A stretch of DNA of 7,216 bases, from assembly GCA_021787255.1 (NCBI GenBank), contig JAJYMD010000189.1, positions 1-7,216 on the forward strand. The letters are read 5' to 3'. The notes under the pieces are model-generated. The model searched no databases. It was not told where the DNA came from and saw nothing but the letters and a program-made list of their open reading frames with translations. This document shows positions 1 through 6,356 of the stretch, one piece after another (position 1 is the first letter of the stretch; each line of letters starts with the position of its first letter). The DNA comes from Actinomycetes bacterium (lineage in GTDB: Bacteria; Actinomycetota; Acidimicrobiia; Acidimicrobiales; RAAP-2). The position numbers were made by a program, and so were the translations under genes.

Positions 1-294
1 GAGATCCTCGGGCTCGTCGACGCGTACCCGCGCACTCGGCTGATCCTGGGGGTGGTCGGGGGGCAGGGGATGCTGCTCGGACGGGGCAATCAGCAGCTGG
101 GGCCGAGGGTGCTCGGACGGCTGTCCCCCGACGACGTCATGATCCTCTCGACTGCCGAGAAGCTCGTCGCGCTGCGGCCCGCGCTGCTGCGCGTCGACGC
201 CGGCGACGAGGCGTCGTTCCCGTGGCTGGCCGGCTACCGGCGCGTCCGGGTCGGTCCGCGGCGCTACATGATGATGCGCGTGGACGCGGCATGA
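1..294 (+). CDS. ATP-NAD kinase family protein (COG3199/AcoX-like), C-terminal part
   Basis: This is a partial gene whose 5' end lies outside the window; the last 97 codons are visible, ending at TGA 292-294. The fragment reads GVVGGQGMLLGRGNQQLGP, followed by a TAEKL segment, LLRVDAGD, then LAGYRRVRVG. This matches the C-terminal region of COG3199 proteins, where the usual pattern is a GGQG-F/GRGNQQ-SP motif, an A/T-EKL motif, VDTGD and a GY-RV strand. The family has an NAD-kinase-like fold and includes AcoX, which is encoded with acetoin dehydrogenase genes; its reaction is uncertain in most members. VDAGD replaces the usual VDTGD, a minor change. The next gene starts 64 bases downstream on the same strand, so co-transcription is likely. 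The family assignment is fairly sure; the actual activity is unknown. Confidence 0.8.
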   Translation, partial: EILGLVDAYPRTRLILGVVGGQGMLLGRGNQQLGPRVLGRLSPDDVMILSTAEKLVALRPALLRVDAGDEASFPWLAGYRRVRVGPRRYMMMRVDAA

Positions 295-320: not shown

Positions 321-344
321 CGGCCGGCAGCGGACGGGTGAGCG

Positions 345-353
345 AGGAAAGGA
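345..353 (+). promoter_or_regulatory. Ribosome binding site that decides the gcvPA start
   Basis: The purine run AGGAAAGGA ends five bases before the GTG at 359-361. The alternative in-frame GTG at 338-340 has no comparable purine run at the right distance, and this site would lie inside that longer reading frame. The start at 359 is therefore preferred. Confidence 0.55.
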
Positions 354-358
354 CGGAC

Positions 359-1789
359 GTGGCACATCCCTTCATGGCGAGCGCGCTCGCCGACCAGCAA
401 GCCGAGATGCTGGAAGCGATCGGAGCCGAGCGCGTCGAGGAGCTCTTCGAGCAGATCCCGCAGGCGCATCGTCTCGCGGCACCGCTGCGGCTCCCTCCCC
501 AGCTCGTCCCGGAGGCCGCGCTGCGCCGCCACCTCCGCGGGATCCTCTCGCGGTCGACCACCTGCGAGGGGGCGCTCAGCTTCCTCGGCGGCGGGTACTG
601 GCGCCACCACGTCCCGGCGATCTGCGACGAGATCGCCTCGCGGCGCGAGTGGCTCACCTCGGTGTGGGGCACGCCGTCGTCAGACCAAGGGCGCTTCCAG
701 GCGTGGTTCGAGTACGCGAGCCAGCTCGGCGAGCTGCTCGACCTCGACTTCGTGGGTCTCCCCGTCTACAGCTGGGGGTGCGCCGCCGGCCACGCGCTGC
801 GCATGGCCGCCCGCATGACCGGGCGCCGGCGCGTCCTCGTCCCCGAGGCTCTCGACCCCGAGCGCCGCGCGGTGATCGCCAACTACTGCGGAAGCCCGGA
901 GCTCGCGCCCCACCTCGAGCTGGGGACCGTCGCCTGGCGGCGGAGCGACGGGCGCGTGGACCTCGACGACCTCGCCGCCAAGCTGTCCCTCGACGTGGCC
1001 GCGGTGTACGTCGAGAACCCGAACTTCTTCGGCGTCGTGGAGGACCAGGTCGGCGAGGCGGTCGCGATGGTCTCCGGCGCGGGTGCGGAGCTGGTGCTGG
1101 GCGTCGACCCGCTCTCCCTGGGGGTGCTCGCGCCGCCCGGCGAGCTCGGGATCGGCCTCGCCGTCGGGACGATCCAGTCGCTCGGCGTCCACCTGAACGC
1201 GGGCGGCGGCGCCGGCGGCTTCATCGCCAGCCGCGACGAGGAGCGCTACGCCCGTGAGTTCCCCACCCTGCAGGTGAGCCTGTGCGACACGACCCAGGAA
1301 GGCGAGCGCGGGTACGGCATCAGCCTCTTCGCTCAGACCTCGTACGGCGCGAGGGAGCAGGGCAACGACTGGACCGGGAACTCCGTCTACATGTGGTCGA
1401 TCGCGAACGCGGCCTACATGGCCGTGATGGGGCCGCAGGGGTTCGCCGACGTCGGCGCGGCGGTCCTGCAGCGAAGCCACCACGCGGCACGGCGCCTCGC
1501 CGCGCTGCCGGGGGTGCGCGTCCGCTTCCCGTCGGGCTTCTTCAAGGAGCTCGTCGTCGACTTCGGCGGCACCGGACTGCGCGTCGCAGAGGTCAACGAC
1601 GCCCTGCGCCGCCGCGGCATCTTCGGCGGCCTCGACCTGTCGGGAACGTTTCCCGAGCTCGGGCAGTCCGCGCTCTACTGCCTGACCGAGCTGCACACGG
1701 CCGCAGACGTCGAGCGCCTCGTAGACGTGCTCGGAGAGGTGCTCGGCGAACCGTCCGCTCCGCACGCTGGCGACGGAGCCGGACGATGA
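359..1789 (+). CDS. gcvPA: Divergent glycine dehydrogenase (decarboxylating) subunit 1-like protein
   Basis: A 476-aa protein of the fold-type I PLP family that matches GcvPA over its whole length. The N-terminus (residues 14-33: EML..IG....ELFEQIP) and the FLGGGYWRHHVPAI segment are typical. GcvPA and GcvPB together form the P-protein, which decarboxylates glycine and passes the aminomethyl group to lipoylated GcvH; the catalytic lysine is in GcvPB. The conserved GcvPA interface motifs are strongly altered. WGTPSSDQG at 103-111 replaces the usual TPYQPE-SQG. LPVYSWGCAA at 134-143 replaces NASMYDGATA. REQGNDWTGNSVYM at 332-345 replaces REQHIRREKATSNICT. I infer a paralogue with changed substrate or acceptor rather than the housekeeping enzyme. 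Start chosen by its ribosome binding site; GTG at 338 would add seven residues. The stop overlaps the next start (ATGA), which fits stoichiometric co-translation with subunit 2. Fold and family are near certain; glycine as substrate is doubtful. Confidence 0.87.
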   Translation: MAHPFMASALADQQAEMLEAIGAERVEELFEQIPQAHRLAAPLRLPPQLVPEAALRRHLRGILSRSTTCEGALSFLGGGYWRHHVPAICDEIASRREWLTSVWGTPSSDQGRFQAWFEYASQLGELLDLDFVGLPVYSWGCAAGHALRMAARMTGRRRVLVPEALDPERRAVIANYCGSPELAPHLELGTVAWRRSDGRVDLDDLAAKLSLDVAAVYVENPNFFGVVEDQVGEAVAMVSGAGAELVLGVDPLSLGVLAPPGELGIGLAVGTIQSLGVHLNAGGGAGGFIASRDEERYAREFPTLQVSLCDTTQEGERGYGISLFAQTSYGAREQGNDWTGNSVYMWSIANAAYMAVMGPQGFADVGAAVLQRSHHAARRLAALPGVRVRFPSGFFKELVVDFGGTGLRVAEVNDALRRRGIFGGLDLSGTFPELGQSALYCLTELHTAADVERLVDVLGEVLGEPSAPHAGDGAGR

Positions 1790-3393
1790 GCGGGCCCGGC
1801 GGGCGCCGCTACCACGCCGCCGTGTGGGACGAACCACTCGTCCACGAGCTCGGCCACCCCGGACGCCGCGGGGTGATCGTCCCCGGGGTCGAGCCCGAGG
1901 TGGCCGCGGCAGCAGGAGATCCCCTCGCACTGGTGGCCCCTGCGGCGCGCCGGCGGGTTCCGCCGTCGCTGCCCGAACTGAGCGAGTGGGAGGTCCTGCG
2001 TCACTACCTTCATCTGTCCCAGCAGACCCTCGGGATGATGGGCGTCAGCCTCTTCGGGACCTGCACGATGAAGTACAACCCCGCGCTCTCCGAGAGCCTC
2101 ACCTCACTCCCCGAGGTTCGTGAGGTGCACCCGCTGCAGCACGAGGAGACGATGCAGGGCCTCTTGGAGATCGTCTACCGCCTCGACCTCGCCCTGCGGG
2201 AGCTGTCCGGGATGGACCGCTTCGTGTTCCAGCCCGGCGGCGGAGCCGACGCGGCTTGGCTCCATGCCTGCATGACCCGCGCGTACCACGCCGACCGTTG
2301 CGAGCTCGCCCAGCGCGACGAGGTCGTGACCACGATCCAAGCGCACCCGTGCAATGCAGCGACCGCGGCCGCCGCCGGCTTCAAGGTGATCACCCTCCCG
2401 CTCGAAGAGGGGGGGCGGGCGTCGCTCGGCGCGCTGCGCGGGGCGGTCTCCGAGCGCACCGCCGCGCTCATGGTGAACAACCCCGACGACATGGGGATCT
2501 ACAACCCCGACATCGCAGAGTGGGTCGAAGCGGTCCACGCAGTCGGCGGGCTGTGCTTCTACGACCACGCCAACTTCAACGGCGTGATGGGCAAGCTCCG
2601 CGCCGCGGACCTCGGCTTCGACGCGTGCATGTTCATGCTGCACAAGACCTTCGGAGCCCCCAAGGGCAACGGTCCCGCGGTCGGCGCCTACGGCTGCTCC
2701 GATCGCCTCGCGCCCTACCTTCCCGGACCGCTCGTCGTGGCCGACGGGCTCGACGGCGAACCCGACCCTCACGGAGCTGGCTTCGATCTGCCCGCTTTCG
2801 GCCGGTCCGACGTGCGCTTCCGACTCGTGGAGCCCGAGCGCGGCGTCGGACGGGTCCGAGAGTACCTGGGCAACCTCCCCCAGGTCGTGAAGGCCTACGC
2901 GTGGGTGCGCGCCATGGGCGCGGAGGGCATCGGCGAGGCGTCCGACCTCTCGGTGCTCATGAGCAACTACATCGACGCGCGCCTGAGATCGATACGGGGG
3001 GTCACCCGGTCGAACCCGGAGACGGGTGCCCACCGCCTCGAGATGTGCCGCTACAGCCTGGAGGCGCTCGCCGAGGAGACCGGCGTCGGCGCCGTCGACG
3101 TGCAGCATCGCATGACGGACTTCGGGATCGACGCCTTCTGGCTCAGCCACGAGCCGTGGATCGTGCCCGAGCCGTTCACCCCCGAAGCGGGGGAGCTCTG
3201 GAGATCGGAGGACGTCGACGAGTGGCTCGGGGTGCTCGCGCTCGTGTGCGCCGAGGCCTACGAGCACCCCGAAGTGGTCCGCACGGCACCGCACCACCAG
3301 GTCACCCATCGCGTCGACGGCAGCGCGCTGGACGACCCCGCGCGCTGGGCGACCACCTGGCGCGCCTACCGGGCAAAACGCCGGGCGCCGTGA
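1786..3393 (+). CDS. gcvPB: Divergent glycine dehydrogenase (decarboxylating) subunit 2-like protein, PLP-binding
   Basis: A 535-aa protein that matches GcvPB along its length. The ATG lies in an ATGA overlap with subunit 1, which fixes the start. Retained features are GTCTMKYNP at 91-99 (usual GSCTMKYNP), the PLP ring-stacking histidine H187, the pyridine-N aspartate D260 in FYDHANFN, and the Schiff-base lysine K287 in HKTF. The glycine-rich loop right after the lysine is lost: HKTFGAPKGNGPAVG (286-300) stands where true GcvPB has HKTF-TPHGGGGPG-GP. Other changes are QAHPCNAAT for SAHGTNPAS around H187 and EPFTPEAGE (462 onward) for the EPTETESKE-type C-terminal motif. PLP chemistry is therefore likely intact, but the substrate and lipoyl-carrier contacts probably differ. 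No gcvH or gcvT is nearby in the window. It should form a heterodimeric unit with the preceding subunit. The family call is firm; glycine decarboxylation is not proven. Confidence 0.88.
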   Translation: MSGPGGRRYHAAVWDEPLVHELGHPGRRGVIVPGVEPEVAAAAGDPLALVAPAARRRVPPSLPELSEWEVLRHYLHLSQQTLGMMGVSLFGTCTMKYNPALSESLTSLPEVREVHPLQHEETMQGLLEIVYRLDLALRELSGMDRFVFQPGGGADAAWLHACMTRAYHADRCELAQRDEVVTTIQAHPCNAATAAAAGFKVITLPLEEGGRASLGALRGAVSERTAALMVNNPDDMGIYNPDIAEWVEAVHAVGGLCFYDHANFNGVMGKLRAADLGFDACMFMLHKTFGAPKGNGPAVGAYGCSDRLAPYLPGPLVVADGLDGEPDPHGAGFDLPAFGRSDVRFRLVEPERGVGRVREYLGNLPQVVKAYAWVRAMGAEGIGEASDLSVLMSNYIDARLRSIRGVTRSNPETGAHRLEMCRYSLEALAEETGVGAVDVQHRMTDFGIDAFWLSHEPWIVPEPFTPEAGELWRSEDVDEWLGVLALVCAEAYEHPEVVRTAPHHQVTHRVDGSALDDPARWATTWRAYRAKRRAP

Positions 3394-5273
3394 GGTTGCC
3401 GAGGCTGCCGAGGCTGCCCGGCCGGCCGGGTGGGCGCGGGGGCGCGGCGGCGCGGGGCGAAGGGACCACTGCCGCCGCCCCGGTCTGCGTGCGCGTCGGG
3501 AAGCCCGGGATCGACCCGGCGCCCGAAGACGCCGAGTTCACCTTCGAGGGCGAGACGATCCGCGCGCGTTGCGGGGAGAGCGTCGCCGCGGCCCTGGTCG
3601 CAGCCGGCAAGCTGGCTTGTCGCTCGACCCGCGCCACCGGTGAGCGGGGGATCTTCTGCGGAATGGGCGTGTGTACCGACTGCTCGCTGACCATCGACGG
3701 GCGCGGCGGCCGGCTCGCGTGCATGGAGAAGGTCGTCTCCGGGCTCCGCGTGGCGAAGGACCCCGCGATGCGCGCGCTCGACCAGGCCGAGCCCGCAGCC
3801 CCGGACCTCCCCGAAGATGAGCTGGAGGCCGACGTGGTGATCGTGGGCGCCGGCCCCGCAGGCCTCGCGGCGGCGCTCGCCGCGTCGAGCGCGTCCGCGA
3901 GCGTGCTCCTGGTCGACAACCGCCGGACTGGGGGCGGGCAGTACTTCAAGCAGCCCGGGGAAGGCTTCTCACTGGACGACGCGGCGCTCGACGCGCAGTA
4001 CCGGGCGGGTCGGGCGCTCCTCGGACGCGTGGCGGCGTCCCCGGTCCGCGCGCTGCGAGAGACCGTGGTGTGGGGCGCGACCGGGCCCGGCCACCTCCAC
4101 GCGACGTCCCCGACCCGCCGGTACGCGATCAGAGGGCACGCCCTCGTGCTCGCGACGGGCGCGTACGAACGTGGCGTCCCGTTCCCGGGCTGGACGCTGC
4201 CGGGGGTCATGACCACCGGGGCGGCGCAGACGCTCCTGCGCTCGTACCTCGTCGCTGCCGGGCGGCGCGTGCTCGTCTCGGGGAACGGTCCGCTGAACCT
4301 CCAGGTCGCCGCGGAGCTCCGCTCGGCCGGCGTCGACGTGGTGGCGGTGGCCGAGACCGCGCCCCTGTTCCGCCTCGCGGCGGCTCTGCACCTCGTCGGT
4401 CTGCTCGCGTCCTCGCCGCGCGACGCCCACCAGGGGCTCGGCTACCTGCGCGACCTCGCGGGGGTCGAGCTGCTCGCACGCTCCGCTGTCGTCGCGGCGG
4501 GAGGCGACGGCAGGGTGGAGTGGGCGGAGGTGGCCCGCCTCGACCCCGACGGCCGCCCGATCGACGCTGGGCGCCGGCGGTTCCGCGTGGACTCGGTGTG
4601 CGTCGGCCACGGCTTCGTCCCCTCCGTCGAGCTCGCGAGGGCGCTGGGCTGTGCCCAGGCCGTCGACGCGCGCACCGGAACCGTGACCGTGCTGCGCGAT
4701 CGCCGAGGCAGGACCTCGGTGCAACGGGTGTGGAGCGCGGGCGACGGCGGACGGGTCGCCGGCGCGCAGGCGGCTCAGGCGATGGGGACCCTCGCTGGAA
4801 TCGACGCGGCGCGCTCGGTCGGGCACGTCGCCTCCGGGACCGCAGGGAAGGAGCGACGACTCGCCCACGAGCTCGCCCGACACGAGCGCTTCCAGCGCTC
4901 GTTGTGGCGGCTGTTCGACGGTCCGCGCCTGGTGGACCAGCTTGCGAGCTCGAGCACGGTGGTGTGCCGCTGCGAGGAGGTCACCCTGGGCCAGCTCACT
5001 GCCGCCGGCTCGTCGTGGTCGGCCTCTGCGGGTGCGCTCAAGCGTCTCACGCGGGCCGGGATGGGCAAGTGCCAGGGCCGTTACTGCGGTCCGGTGCTCG
5101 CGGAGATCGCTCGGCGCGTCTCGGGCGAGCCGCTCGGTACCCGCTCGGGGTTCGCGCCCCAGGCGCCCTGCCTCCCGGCACCGCTCGCCACACTCGCGGC
5201 GATGCCCTCCGCCGGGCATGCCGAGGGGTCCGACGCCGCGCCCGAGGCGGCGCTCACGACATCGACGCCTTGA
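3390..5273 (+). CDS. FAD/NAD-dependent oxidoreductase with N-terminal [2Fe-2S] and C-terminal BFD-type [2Fe-2S] domains (HcnA-HcnB/OoxA-like fusion)
   Basis: A 627-aa protein with three parts. Residues about 33-125 are a plant-type ferredoxin domain with cysteines C90, C95, C98 and C111 (C-X4-C-X2-C-X12-C). Residues about 145-490 are a two-Rossmann flavin oxidoreductase: GAGPAG at 153-158 for FAD, LATGAYERGVPFPGWTLPG, GNGPLN at 298-303 for the second nucleotide, and a VWSAGDGG motif. Residues about 520-580 are a BFD-like domain with C526, C528, C561 and C566. This is the order of HcnA joined to HcnB, also seen in opine, proline and amine dehydrogenase A subunits, which pass electrons from a DadA-like FAD subunit to an acceptor. 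No such partner subunit is in the window. There is no C-terminal GcvT-like domain, so it is not a full sarcosine oxidase alpha. The GTG start sits in a GTGA overlap with the upstream gene. A later GTG at 3489 would remove a low-complexity N-terminus. The 3' end overlaps the opposing IclR gene by 20 bp. Confidence 0.85.
   Translation: MRLPRLPRLPGRPGGRGGAAARGEGTTAAAPVCVRVGKPGIDPAPEDAEFTFEGETIRARCGESVAAALVAAGKLACRSTRATGERGIFCGMGVCTDCSLTIDGRGGRLACMEKVVSGLRVAKDPAMRALDQAEPAAPDLPEDELEADVVIVGAGPAGLAAALAASSASASVLLVDNRRTGGGQYFKQPGEGFSLDDAALDAQYRAGRALLGRVAASPVRALRETVVWGATGPGHLHATSPTRRYAIRGHALVLATGAYERGVPFPGWTLPGVMTTGAAQTLLRSYLVAAGRRVLVSGNGPLNLQVAAELRSAGVDVVAVAETAPLFRLAAALHLVGLLASSPRDAHQGLGYLRDLAGVELLARSAVVAAGGDGRVEWAEVARLDPDGRPIDAGRRRFRVDSVCVGHGFVPSVELARALGCAQAVDARTGTVTVLRDRRGRTSVQRVWSAGDGGRVAGAQAAQAMGTLAGIDAARSVGHVASGTAGKERRLAHELARHERFQRSLWRLFDGPRLVDQLASSSTVVCRCEEVTLGQLTAAGSSWSASAGALKRLTRAGMGKCQGRYCGPVLAEIARRVSGEPLGTRSGFAPQAPCLPAPLATLAAMPSAGHAEGSDAAPEAALTTSTP
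3393..3419 (+). repeat. Three 9-bp tandem repeats encoding RLP-RLP-RLP
   Basis: Near-identical units AGGTTGCCG, AGGCTGCCG and AGGCTGCCC lie at 3393-3401, 3402-3410 and 3411-3419. They start right after the first codon of the oxidoreductase and give a basic Leu/Pro/Arg N-terminal tail before the ferredoxin domain. The tail may be translated and disordered, or it may be untranslated if the real start is the GTG at 3489. Confidence 0.6.
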
Positions 5274-6249
5274 GCTGCACGGAGACGCGGACTTCTTCTT
5301 CGAGCCGCATGACGGTCTCTTGGAGCGCGGGAAGGAACTCGCAGAGGAAAACGTCGGAGCTCGCGCGTAGCGTGTAGGCACTGACGTTCATTGCGGCCAC
5401 CACTGCGCCGTTCGCGTCGTGAACCGGAACCGCGATGGCGCCGAGCCCGTCCTCGAGCTCCTGGTCCAACAGCGCGTAACCCTGAGCGCGTACCTGGAGG
5501 AGCACCTTCCTCAACTCGGTGGGGTCGGTGACAGTCGAGTCGGTGAGCCGCTCCAGGACGACCCTCTTCAAGTACGCGTCGATCTCCTCGTCGCTCGAGC
5601 GCGCGAGGAGCACCCGCCCGAGCGACGTGCAGTACGCAGGATCCCTGCCGCCGATCGGGACGTTGATGGTCATGACCCGGCGTGGGGCGACGTTCGCGAC
5701 GTAGACGATCTCGTCACCGTCGAGGACGGCCGCGCTGGTCGACTCCTGCACCCTGGCCGAGAGCTCCTCCATGTAGGGCTGCGCGATCTCAGGGAAGGTG
5801 AGCCCTGAAAGGTAGCTGTAGCCGAGCTCCAGGATGCGCGGCCGCAACGAGAAGGAGCGTCCCTCGCTTCGCACGTAGCCGAGCTCGACCAAGGTGAGGA
5901 GGAAGCGCCTCGCCACCGCCCGGGTGAGACCCGTCGCCTGAGCCACGTCGGTGACGCTCATATGGGTGCGATCCGGTCCGAAGGCCCGGATCACCGCGAA
6001 GCCGCGCTCGAGCGACTGCACGAACTCCACCCGCCGCCCACCAGCCCCGCGCACGGCGACGGTGCCGCTGGCGCGCCCCGCGCCGCGGCCCGATGCCGGA
6101 AGCTCCGCCGCGACGCGCTCGGGGACGGGGACCCGCTCGGGGTCGCGGACCCGCTCGGGGTCGCGGGCACGCTCGGGGTCGCGGGCGCGGGCACTGCGTC
6201 CCGGCGCAACCGGAGCGTGCTCAGGAGCTGCAGGCGCTCTGGGCGGCAT
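5254..6249 (-). CDS. IclR-family transcriptional regulator, PcaR/PcaU/PobR subgroup
   Basis: A 331-aa regulator if started at the ATG 6249-6247. The core begins at residue about 74 with VEFVQSLERGFAVIRAFG. A winged helix-turn-helix follows (about 97-128: SVTDVAQATGLTRAVARRF, then LVELGYVR), then the effector domain with LELGYSYLSGL, EIAQPYMEEL, VLDGDEIVYVANV and DPAYCTSLGRVLLA. These phrases are characteristic of the subgroup that controls aromatic and other catabolic operons, often as activators or repressors bound to a small carboxylate. The 73-residue N-terminal extension is Pro/Arg/Ala-rich and carries an 18-bp tandem repeat. A GTG at 6030-6028 would give a 258-aa protein of normal family length, so the start is uncertain. 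The gene faces the left operon and overlaps the oxidoreductase 3' end by 20 bp. It is a candidate regulator of that operon or of itself, but this is inference from position. Confidence 0.88.
   Translation of the reverse strand: MPPRAPAAPEHAPVAPGRSARARDPERARDPERVRDPERVPVPERVAAELPASGRGAGRASGTVAVRGAGGRRVEFVQSLERGFAVIRAFGPDRTHMSVTDVAQATGLTRAVARRFLLTLVELGYVRSEGRSFSLRPRILELGYSYLSGLTFPEIAQPYMEELSARVQESTSAAVLDGDEIVYVANVAPRRVMTINVPIGGRDPAYCTSLGRVLLARSSDEEIDAYLKRVVLERLTDSTVTDPTELRKVLLQVRAQGYALLDQELEDGLGAIAVPVHDANGAVVAAMNVSAYTLRASSDVFLCEFLPALQETVMRLEEEVRVSVQLKASMS
6116..6187 (-). repeat. Four tandem 18-bp repeats in the 5' part of the IclR gene
   Basis: Four units of 18 bp begin at 6116, 6134, 6152 and 6170. 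On the plus strand each starts CGCTCGGGG; the last three share CGCTCGGGGTCGCGG and differ only in the final three bases. On the coding strand they give repeats of the type RDPERV/RDPERA in the N-terminal extension. The unit length is a multiple of three, so copy number can change without a frameshift. Confidence 0.85.
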
Positions 6250-6274
6250 CAGTCGTGCATGGTAGTGGTCTCCT
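6249..6274 (-). promoter_or_regulatory. Ribosome binding site and three-codon leader ORF coupled to the IclR start
   Basis: On the minus strand AGGAG (6274-6270) is followed after nine bases by ATG (6260-6258), which opens ATG-CAC-GAC-TGA. The TGA (6251-6249) shares its last A with the ATG of the IclR gene (TGATG). The same AGGAG is 20 bases from the IclR ATG, too far for normal use. Initiation at the minigene followed by re-initiation would explain the arrangement. It may also be chance, especially if the IclR gene starts at 6030. Confidence 0.35.
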
Positions 6275-6289
6275 GCGGCAACGACCCTT

Positions 6290-6318
6290 GCCGACCGCAA
6301 GCGCCGGGTGCGGTCGGC
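6290..6318. promoter_or_regulatory. Perfect 9-bp inverted repeat upstream of the IclR gene (candidate operator or hairpin)
   Basis: GCCGACCGC (6290-6298) and its exact reverse complement GCGGTCGGC (6310-6318) are separated by 11 bases. The element lies in the 107-bp gap between the M24 stop and the IclR ATG, about 40-70 bases upstream of that ATG. No T-run follows on the minus strand, so a classical intrinsic terminator is unlikely. IclR proteins commonly bind imperfect palindromes near their own genes, so an autoregulatory operator is plausible; a stabilising 3' hairpin for the M24 transcript is the alternative. Confidence 0.5.
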
Positions 6319-6356
6319 CACGCCTCATCGTGCGCCTGGGAAGGCAGGGCTCGCGT

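Follow-up and report, generated by a model that had tools for sequence, protein, structure and literature searches.

The 7,216-nucleotide stretch analyzed here (contig JAJYMD010000189.1 of the actinomycete assembly GCA_021787255.1; hereafter the window) encodes a two-subunit relative of the glycine cleavage P-protein, composed of a 483-residue GcvPA-like alpha subunit (PA; positions 338..1789, forward strand; 409 bits with NF001696, cut-off 364) and a 535-residue GcvPB-like catalytic beta subunit (PB; 1786..3393, forward strand; an intact 535-codon open reading frame). We find that the pair represents a distinct and apparently undescribed variant of the P-protein. On the basis of sequence comparisons, we favor, with a probability of roughly 0.6, the explanation that PA/PB is a neofunctionalized P-protein paralogue that would act as a pyridoxal 5′-phosphate (PLP) enzyme of amine or amino acid catabolism, probably without using glycine and lipoyl-GcvH. 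The suggestion of the first-pass annotation that the subfamily may be undescribed fits the literature, since no description of the gene set was among the matches listed from an open-access full-text subset. Leads to homarine and to acetoin/AcoX were also followed in the literature and set aside, as neither led to this gene set.

The PB sequence was compared by alignment with 86 distinct family sequences, 35 split GcvPBs, and three fused GcvPs. Thirty-four of the split sequences were called canonical by profile score, and the other, Thermus thermophilus 1wyt_B, is the only solved and characterized enzyme among them. The PLP-site residues previously reported to be in place, H187 (2344..2346), D260 (2563..2565), and K287 (2644..2646; all PB features are on the forward strand), were identical in 86/86 family, 35/35 split, and 3/3 fused sequences; we take K287 to be the Schiff-base lysine, D260 the aspartate at the pyridine nitrogen, and H187 the histidine that stacks on PLP. 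Six other positions carry a fixed replacement in 86/86 family rows (G156→A, G188→P, T235→D, N284→M, H293→K, and P301→A), and at each of them the canonical residue is kept by 35/35 split and 3/3 fused GcvPs. The substitution E157→A is present in 83/86 family rows. The canonical AHGTN, P-N/S-T, HGGGGPG, HEF, and EPTETES motifs are replaced throughout the aligned family, and the E. coli and Synechocystis enzymes carry the canonical strings where aligned. In the window, AHPCN (2341..2355, including P188) stands at AHGTN, PDD (2482..2490, including D235) at PNT/PST, and R417-x-E419-M-x-R422 (3034..3051) at C-x-H-E-F-V, with E419 occupying the position of the His in HEF. Residues R417, E419, R422, and H455 are each fixed in 86/86 family rows, and at positions 417, 422, and 455 the residues of the glycine-type sequences are uncharged and variable. 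The rewriting of SAHGTNPAS and EPTETESKE described earlier was borne out, with IQAHPCNAAT and EPFTPEAGE (3169..3195) found at those sites. The changes E157→A, T235→D, and N284→M, the fixed R417, E419, R422, and H455, and the alpha-subunit changes described below go beyond that description.

The string GAPKGNGPAVG following HKTF (2653..2685) was likewise confirmed by the alignment, with K293 in place of the invariant His. The claim that the glycine-rich loop has been lost did not hold: 81/86 family rows carry a loop of full length or with one extra residue, and the loop is one residue short (K-G-N-G-P-A) in the window and in 5/86 rows (L002, L003, L116, L010, and L021). The family-wide changes around the loop are the replacement of His by Lys at position 293 and of Pro by Ala at position 301.

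To place these substitutions on a common scale, we counted the 111 canonical columns that are at least 95% conserved in the 34 split GcvPBs. The window PB keeps 68 of these columns and has changed 43, the family rows keep 64-72, and the three fused GcvPs keep 91-96; 1wyt_B keeps 84 of its 87 aligned canonical columns. Because the family retains only 64-72 of the 111 columns versus 91-96 in the fused enzymes, the replacements in PB are not attributable to chance. Distance alone is also an insufficient explanation, because the branch of the fused GcvPs measures 2.36 changes per column and these sequences nevertheless keep most canonical columns.

Relatives were gathered in two ways. A protein search scored 7997 candidates, 3979 of them at E≤1e-20 and possibly including canonical relatives, and the best 120 of the 3979 were used; a genome scan with family-type peptides yielded 231 confirmed relatives, and the 80 best of these were used. 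With the family profile, the family rows scored 868-1018 bits, a haloarchaeal plasmid copy (L085) 757 bits, and a deep member (L119) 625 bits, compared to at most 381 bits for canonical split GcvPBs and at most 209 bits for fused GcvPs. The profile thus separates the family cleanly from canonical sequences. A maximum-likelihood PB tree of 84 rows (44 family sequences including the window, L085, L119, 35 split GcvPBs, and three fused GcvPs) placed the family on one side of a branch with support of 100/99. The family together with L085 and L119 was cut off from the split and fused GcvPs by a 100/100 branch of approximately two changes per column (1.81 and 0.25 on the two sides of the midpoint root), in agreement with the proposal of a distinct subfamily that keeps the PLP site and has altered loops. 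Nesting within glycine decarboxylases had been set beforehand as the refuting test for that proposal, and the tree places the family outside all 35 split and three fused sequences. The deep branching order is unsure because long branches meet there, as the tree tool warned. The L119 protein, which is the PB of locus L170, retains part of the canonical loop (PHGSGGPA) and has EPMTLEPTES, and is intermediate in these respects. The Pfam GDC-P model (PF02347) scored above its cut-off with 3/3 canonical GcvPBs tested and matched 0/6 PBs from the family or its deep members, even with E values up to 1 allowed.

The alpha subunit shows family-wide changes as well. Thirteen canonical GcvPA positions are replaced throughout the family, seven of them within one motif, and a quick PA tree put the 29 module rows on one side of a branch, as in the PB tree.

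The partners of glycine cleavage were sought in the draft genomes of hosts representing 22 of the 80 genome loci. In these 22 draft assemblies, no GcvH gene was detected on the module contig at a distance of 100 kb or less, and the three GcvH genes that share a contig with the module are at least 190 kb away. Another P-protein gene scored over the cut-off in 21/22 hosts. No GcvT was present among the neighbors annotated or scanned, a result obtained without a search using GcvT's own model. The fixed alternative set in PB (A156/A157, P188, D235, M284, K293, A301, E419, R417, R422, and H455) makes a different substrate most likely. The new substrate or lipoyl-independent acceptor proposed in the first-pass annotation goes further than the data and is inferred from the lack of GcvH near the module together with the replaced residues. 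According to the favored explanation, PB, which retains its internal aldimine site (K287, D260, and H187), would bind an amino substrate as the external aldimine, after which PA/PB would form a carbanion by cleavage of a bond at C-alpha. The substrate would be an amine or amino acid other than glycine, probably charged, and with no lipoyl arm involved, nothing would be passed to GcvH. The reaction could form one step of a catabolic pathway with the COG3199 kinase described below, SDR enzymes, and SoxA/DAO-type dehydrogenases, a pathway that may often include a class-III aminotransferase and a succinate-semialdehyde-type dehydrogenase.

The genes surrounding the module were counted in a context set of 87 loci (80 genome and 7 plasmid) by using tblastn with annotated neighbors as queries, the queries being drawn from seven of the same 87 loci. 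Homologues of 3-hydroxyacyl-CoA dehydrogenase were the most frequent (46 loci), followed by those of DHDPS (39), SoxA (38), DAO (34), class-III aminotransferase (33), IclR (32), and succinate-semialdehyde dehydrogenase (SSADH; 28). A sequence search showed the Pseudomonas gingeri aminotransferase and dehydrogenase to be closest to PDB chains named 4-aminobutyrate transaminase and succinate-semialdehyde dehydrogenase. The Rhodococcus and Gemmobacter clusters contain genes for an APC permease, an AMP-binding/acyl-CoA synthetase, and an SDR, with a primary-amine oxidase gene also present in Gemmobacter, and the Pseudomonas cluster includes an amino-acid-type ABC transporter (SBP_bac_3). These recurrent neighbors suggest a role in the catabolism of amines or amino acids. 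We considered whether PA/PB might act on N-substituted glycines or opine-like amino acids in conjunction with the SoxA/DAO-type oxidase of the cluster, a notion that draws on the overlap of a SoxA-like gene with the PB stop codon in the window, the SoxA-like and DAO-like genes at 38/87 and 34/87 loci, and the SBP_bac_3 transporter. This possibility appears very unlikely when set against the 49/87 loci with no SoxA homologue in the stretch examined (some because of contig ends) and the Rhodococcus, Gemmobacter, and Sphingomonas plasmid loci, for which tblastn found no SoxA or DAO homologue. A hydroxyproline-type catabolism, suggested by the co-occurrence of DAO, SoxA, and DHDPS, was set aside in view of the SSADH-type dehydrogenases and the loci that lack those genes. 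In Mesorhizobium (L018), a diaminopimelate decarboxylase (LysA)-like gene (13081-14505, reverse strand) is located between the SDR and DHDPS genes. The LysA-like and DapA-like genes of this locus, the only one in which a LysA-like gene was sought, suggest a hint of lysine or diaminopimelate catabolism.

The most constant neighbor of the pair is a COG3199 kinase gene, identified at 79/87 loci (78 by a stricter cut). It adjoins an intact PA-PB pair in 70 loci, on the same strand in 45 and on the opposite strand in 25. In five of the eight loci without the kinase (L003, L004, L046, L047, and L069), the contig ends close to the module, and the kinase was not found elsewhere in the searched genomes of L003, L047, and L069. 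For the haloarchaeal locus L085, the kinase is encoded elsewhere on the same plasmid. The kinase was also not found in the assemblies of L049 and L072, both metagenome-assembled genomes (MAGs). A phosphotriesterase-family gene (7425-8483) occupies the usual kinase place in L049, where the module is accompanied by peptide-ABC, PucR, amidase, and dimethylformamidase-like genes, and L072 possesses a gene of like size and position; the domain scan covered the L049 gene only. The order in the deep-clade locus L169 (8031-13161) is PA-PB-kinase-SDR, accompanied by a divergent GcvA-type LysR gene; in deep-clade locus L170, where the contig stops short of PA, it is PB-kinase-SDR. The module kinases contain the GGDGT nucleotide motif, which does not tell their substrate, and a sequence search of the PDB gave no relative of the P. 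gingeri kinase at E≤0.01. The module kinase was the sole locus of its kind (E≤1e-5) in 13 genomes; a further NAD_kinase-family match was present in 13/14 genomes and was above the cut-off in 12/14.

The fold of PB was examined by using an AlphaFold2 model of the subunit alone, built from 25 sequences with a pLDDT of 66.7. The top Foldseek matches were 9a73_B, 1wyu_B, and 1wyt_B, which at the level of the model confirm the P-protein fold and nothing further. The first match outside the P-proteins was sphingosine-1-phosphate (S1P) lyase (TMq ~0.5), followed by NifS/SufS and further S1P lyases. Because the PB model is weak and NifS/SufS enzymes come next, the S1P lyase match is suggestive only.

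The kinase association raises the prospect of a kinase-then-lyase sequence, in which the COG3199 enzyme would phosphorylate an amino alcohol or hydroxy-amino acid at a hydroxyl group, with PA/PB then eliminating or cleaving the product. Sphingosine kinase with S1P lyase and PduX with CobD are analogous pairs of a kinase and a PLP enzyme. More speculatively, K293, R417, and R422, the three new basic residues fixed in 86/86 rows, might bind the phosphate of the substrate. Such a sequence would account for the presence of the kinase at 79/87 loci and next to PB in both deep-clade loci, and it agrees with the position of the haloarchaeal kinase ~54 kb from PA-PB on the same plasmid together with class-III aminotransferase, DHDPS, and SDR genes. 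A COG3199 kinase gene that overlaps a HisC/CobD-like PLP gene in Peptoclostridium acidaminophilum (L162:7992-10068) and the S1P lyase match of the weak model point in the same direction. We regard the proposal as rather unlikely, however, given the L049 and L072 MAGs, in which the kinase was not found and, for L049, a phosphotriesterase-family gene takes its place, and the three further genomes with truncated contigs in which it was also not found. In addition, COG3199 kinases without PA/PB within 12 kb were seen in 16/249 sampled Pseudomonadota genomes. In the kinase tree, 18 stand-alone kinases and the two from the deep clade fell together (99/95), and the 31 module kinases formed one side of a weakly supported branch (74/88) for which the bootstrap had not settled. 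Because stand-alone COG3199 kinases exist and the deep-clade kinases group with them, the kinase could have a generic role such as NADP supply; it may be either generic or substrate specific. The fuller version of the proposal, which would bring a new catabolic chemistry to the P-protein scaffold, is similarly doubtful: a dedicated kinase would activate a hydroxylated amine or amino acid by phosphorylation, a lipoyl-independent PA/PB would cleave the product, and the module would be reused in various clusters for amine degradation across Actinomycetota, Pseudomonadota, and haloarchaea while being masked by its automatic GcvPA/GcvPB annotation.

Several observations weigh against the favored explanation, that of a PLP enzyme diverted from glycine to amine or amino acid catabolism. 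The NCBI equivalog model for GcvPB (NF003346, cut-off 441) accepts the family, with scores of 455 for the window and 481, 504, and 518 for three other family proteins; the haloarchaeal PB scored 503, one deep-clade PB 575, and canonical split examples 667-736. Fused GcvPs scored 443-475 with this model, the same range as the family, and for this reason the NF003346 score fails to separate the family from glycine-type enzymes. A precomputed PF02347 match is recorded for one of the best 120 relatives (P0083). GcvH was present in 22/22 hosts and is thus available in trans, and the second P-protein was not found in the G018 assembly (locus L060), in which GcvH is present. The contrast is weaker in PA, where the window keeps 50 of 86 canonical columns and the fused GcvPs keep 60-64. 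The neighboring genes differ by lineage, and no single pathway is established by them. Finally, the AlphaFold2 model is weak, and the active-site positions are assigned from alignment and from general knowledge of P-proteins. Some of these points fit an enzyme that is still a glycine decarboxylase, one that would use host lipoyl-GcvH after duplication into catabolic operons to clear glycine arising in the pathway, with the sequence changes tuning its kinetics: the PLP site is fully retained, the NF003346 score exceeds the cut-off, and every host has GcvH. We nonetheless consider this unlikely, as six positions invariant in both split and fused sequences are replaced in 86/86 rows, the fused GcvPs keep most canonical columns despite being far from the split ones, and the vicinity of the module yielded neither GcvH nor, within the scope given above, GcvT.

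The window begins with the C-terminal 97 codons of an ATP-NAD kinase-family gene (1..294, forward strand; cut by the window edge), which we take to be COG3199; it matched PF20143 (NAD_kinase_C) with 30.9 bits (cut-off 23.7), has the GRGNQQ motif in the alignment, and is 88% identical over 76 residues to the gene directly upstream of PA in locus L001. PB starts at an ATG that overlaps the PA stop codon (ATGA), and the GTG start of the following gene overlaps the PB stop codon (GTGA), so that PA, PB, and the third gene overlap as in an operon. This third gene (3390..5273, forward strand) encodes a 627-residue SoxA/HcnAB-like flavoprotein with Fer2_4, FAD, and BFD domains (PF13510, PF07992, and PF04324). 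It corresponds to the N-terminal part of the sarcosine oxidase alpha type, matching TIGR01372 only at 167-598 of 996, a stretch that presumably excludes the GcvT-like half. Convergent with the PA-PB operon is an IclR-family regulator gene of the PcaR/PcaU/PobR subfamily (5254..6321, reverse strand; TIGR02431 321 bits, cut-off 284.75). Approximately 100 residues with DPER-type repeats precede its helix-turn-helix domain, and the first GTG probably lies upstream of the true start. An M24 peptidase gene follows the IclR gene on the reverse strand and is cut by the window edge. The closest genome locus, L001 from an actinobacterial MAG, matches the window in gene order, and its PB shares 91% identity with the window PB; upstream of its module are genes resembling those for DAO, DHDPS, succinate-semialdehyde dehydrogenase, and class-III aminotransferase.

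The family is rare and patchy. In even samples of two phyla, with scoring restricted to the best candidates per genome, sequences with at least 600 bits were detected in 2/296 genomes of the phylum of L031 (the seed and a deep member) and in 3/398 genomes of the phylum of L032 (the seed, a family member, and a deep member by score). Plasmid copies with 50-61% identity were found in Rhodococcus, Sphingomonas, Gemmobacter, Paracoccus, Roseicitreum, Antarctobacter, and a haloarchaeon. Three records labeled as plasmids (NZ_CP030101.1, NZ_AP026896.1, and NZ_CP154629.1), at 2.6 to 4.9 Mb, look like misfiled chromosomes. Two MAGs titled Bifidobacterium breve (L067 and L078) have the cluster type of the Actinomycetota MAG loci L040 and L042, and their title is doubtful.

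The family, found at 231 places in the genome collection, is annotated as glycine cleavage P-protein by a model that accepts it; metabolic reconstructions that trust the name would credit these operons with glycine cleavage. Were the substrate to be found, it would provide a new reaction for the P-protein fold and a function for one or more branches of COG3199 kinases, and it would open uncharacterized amine-degradation clusters to testing in culturable Rhodococcus, Pseudomonas, Caballeronia, and Streptomyces.

Among known systems, the module most resembles the two-subunit GcvPA/GcvPB of T. thermophilus (1wyt/1wyu), with which it shares the alpha/beta gene pair, the fold, the PLP Lys/Asp/His residues, and the CTMK motif; PB aligned to 1wyt_B with an E value of 6.7e-61. 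Unlike GcvPA/GcvPB, the family forms a separate clade, has no GcvH near the module, and is usually accompanied by a COG3199 kinase gene. The fused GcvPs of E. coli, Synechocystis, and human align through their catalytic half and have the same PLP site, but the three fused GcvPs compared above keep a far larger share of canonical columns than the family does. Acetoin operons also contain a gene of the ATP-NAD kinase family, known as AcoX, next to genes for a lyase and a dehydrogenase. The lyase of those operons, acetoin dehydrogenase, is a thiamine pyrophosphate-dependent enzyme and not a PLP enzyme. Sphingosine kinase, a member of the NADK/DAGK/SphK superfamily, acts ahead of a fold-type-I PLP enzyme, S1P lyase, and its resemblance to the module is one of analogy only, with S1P lyase being a remote structural match of PB.

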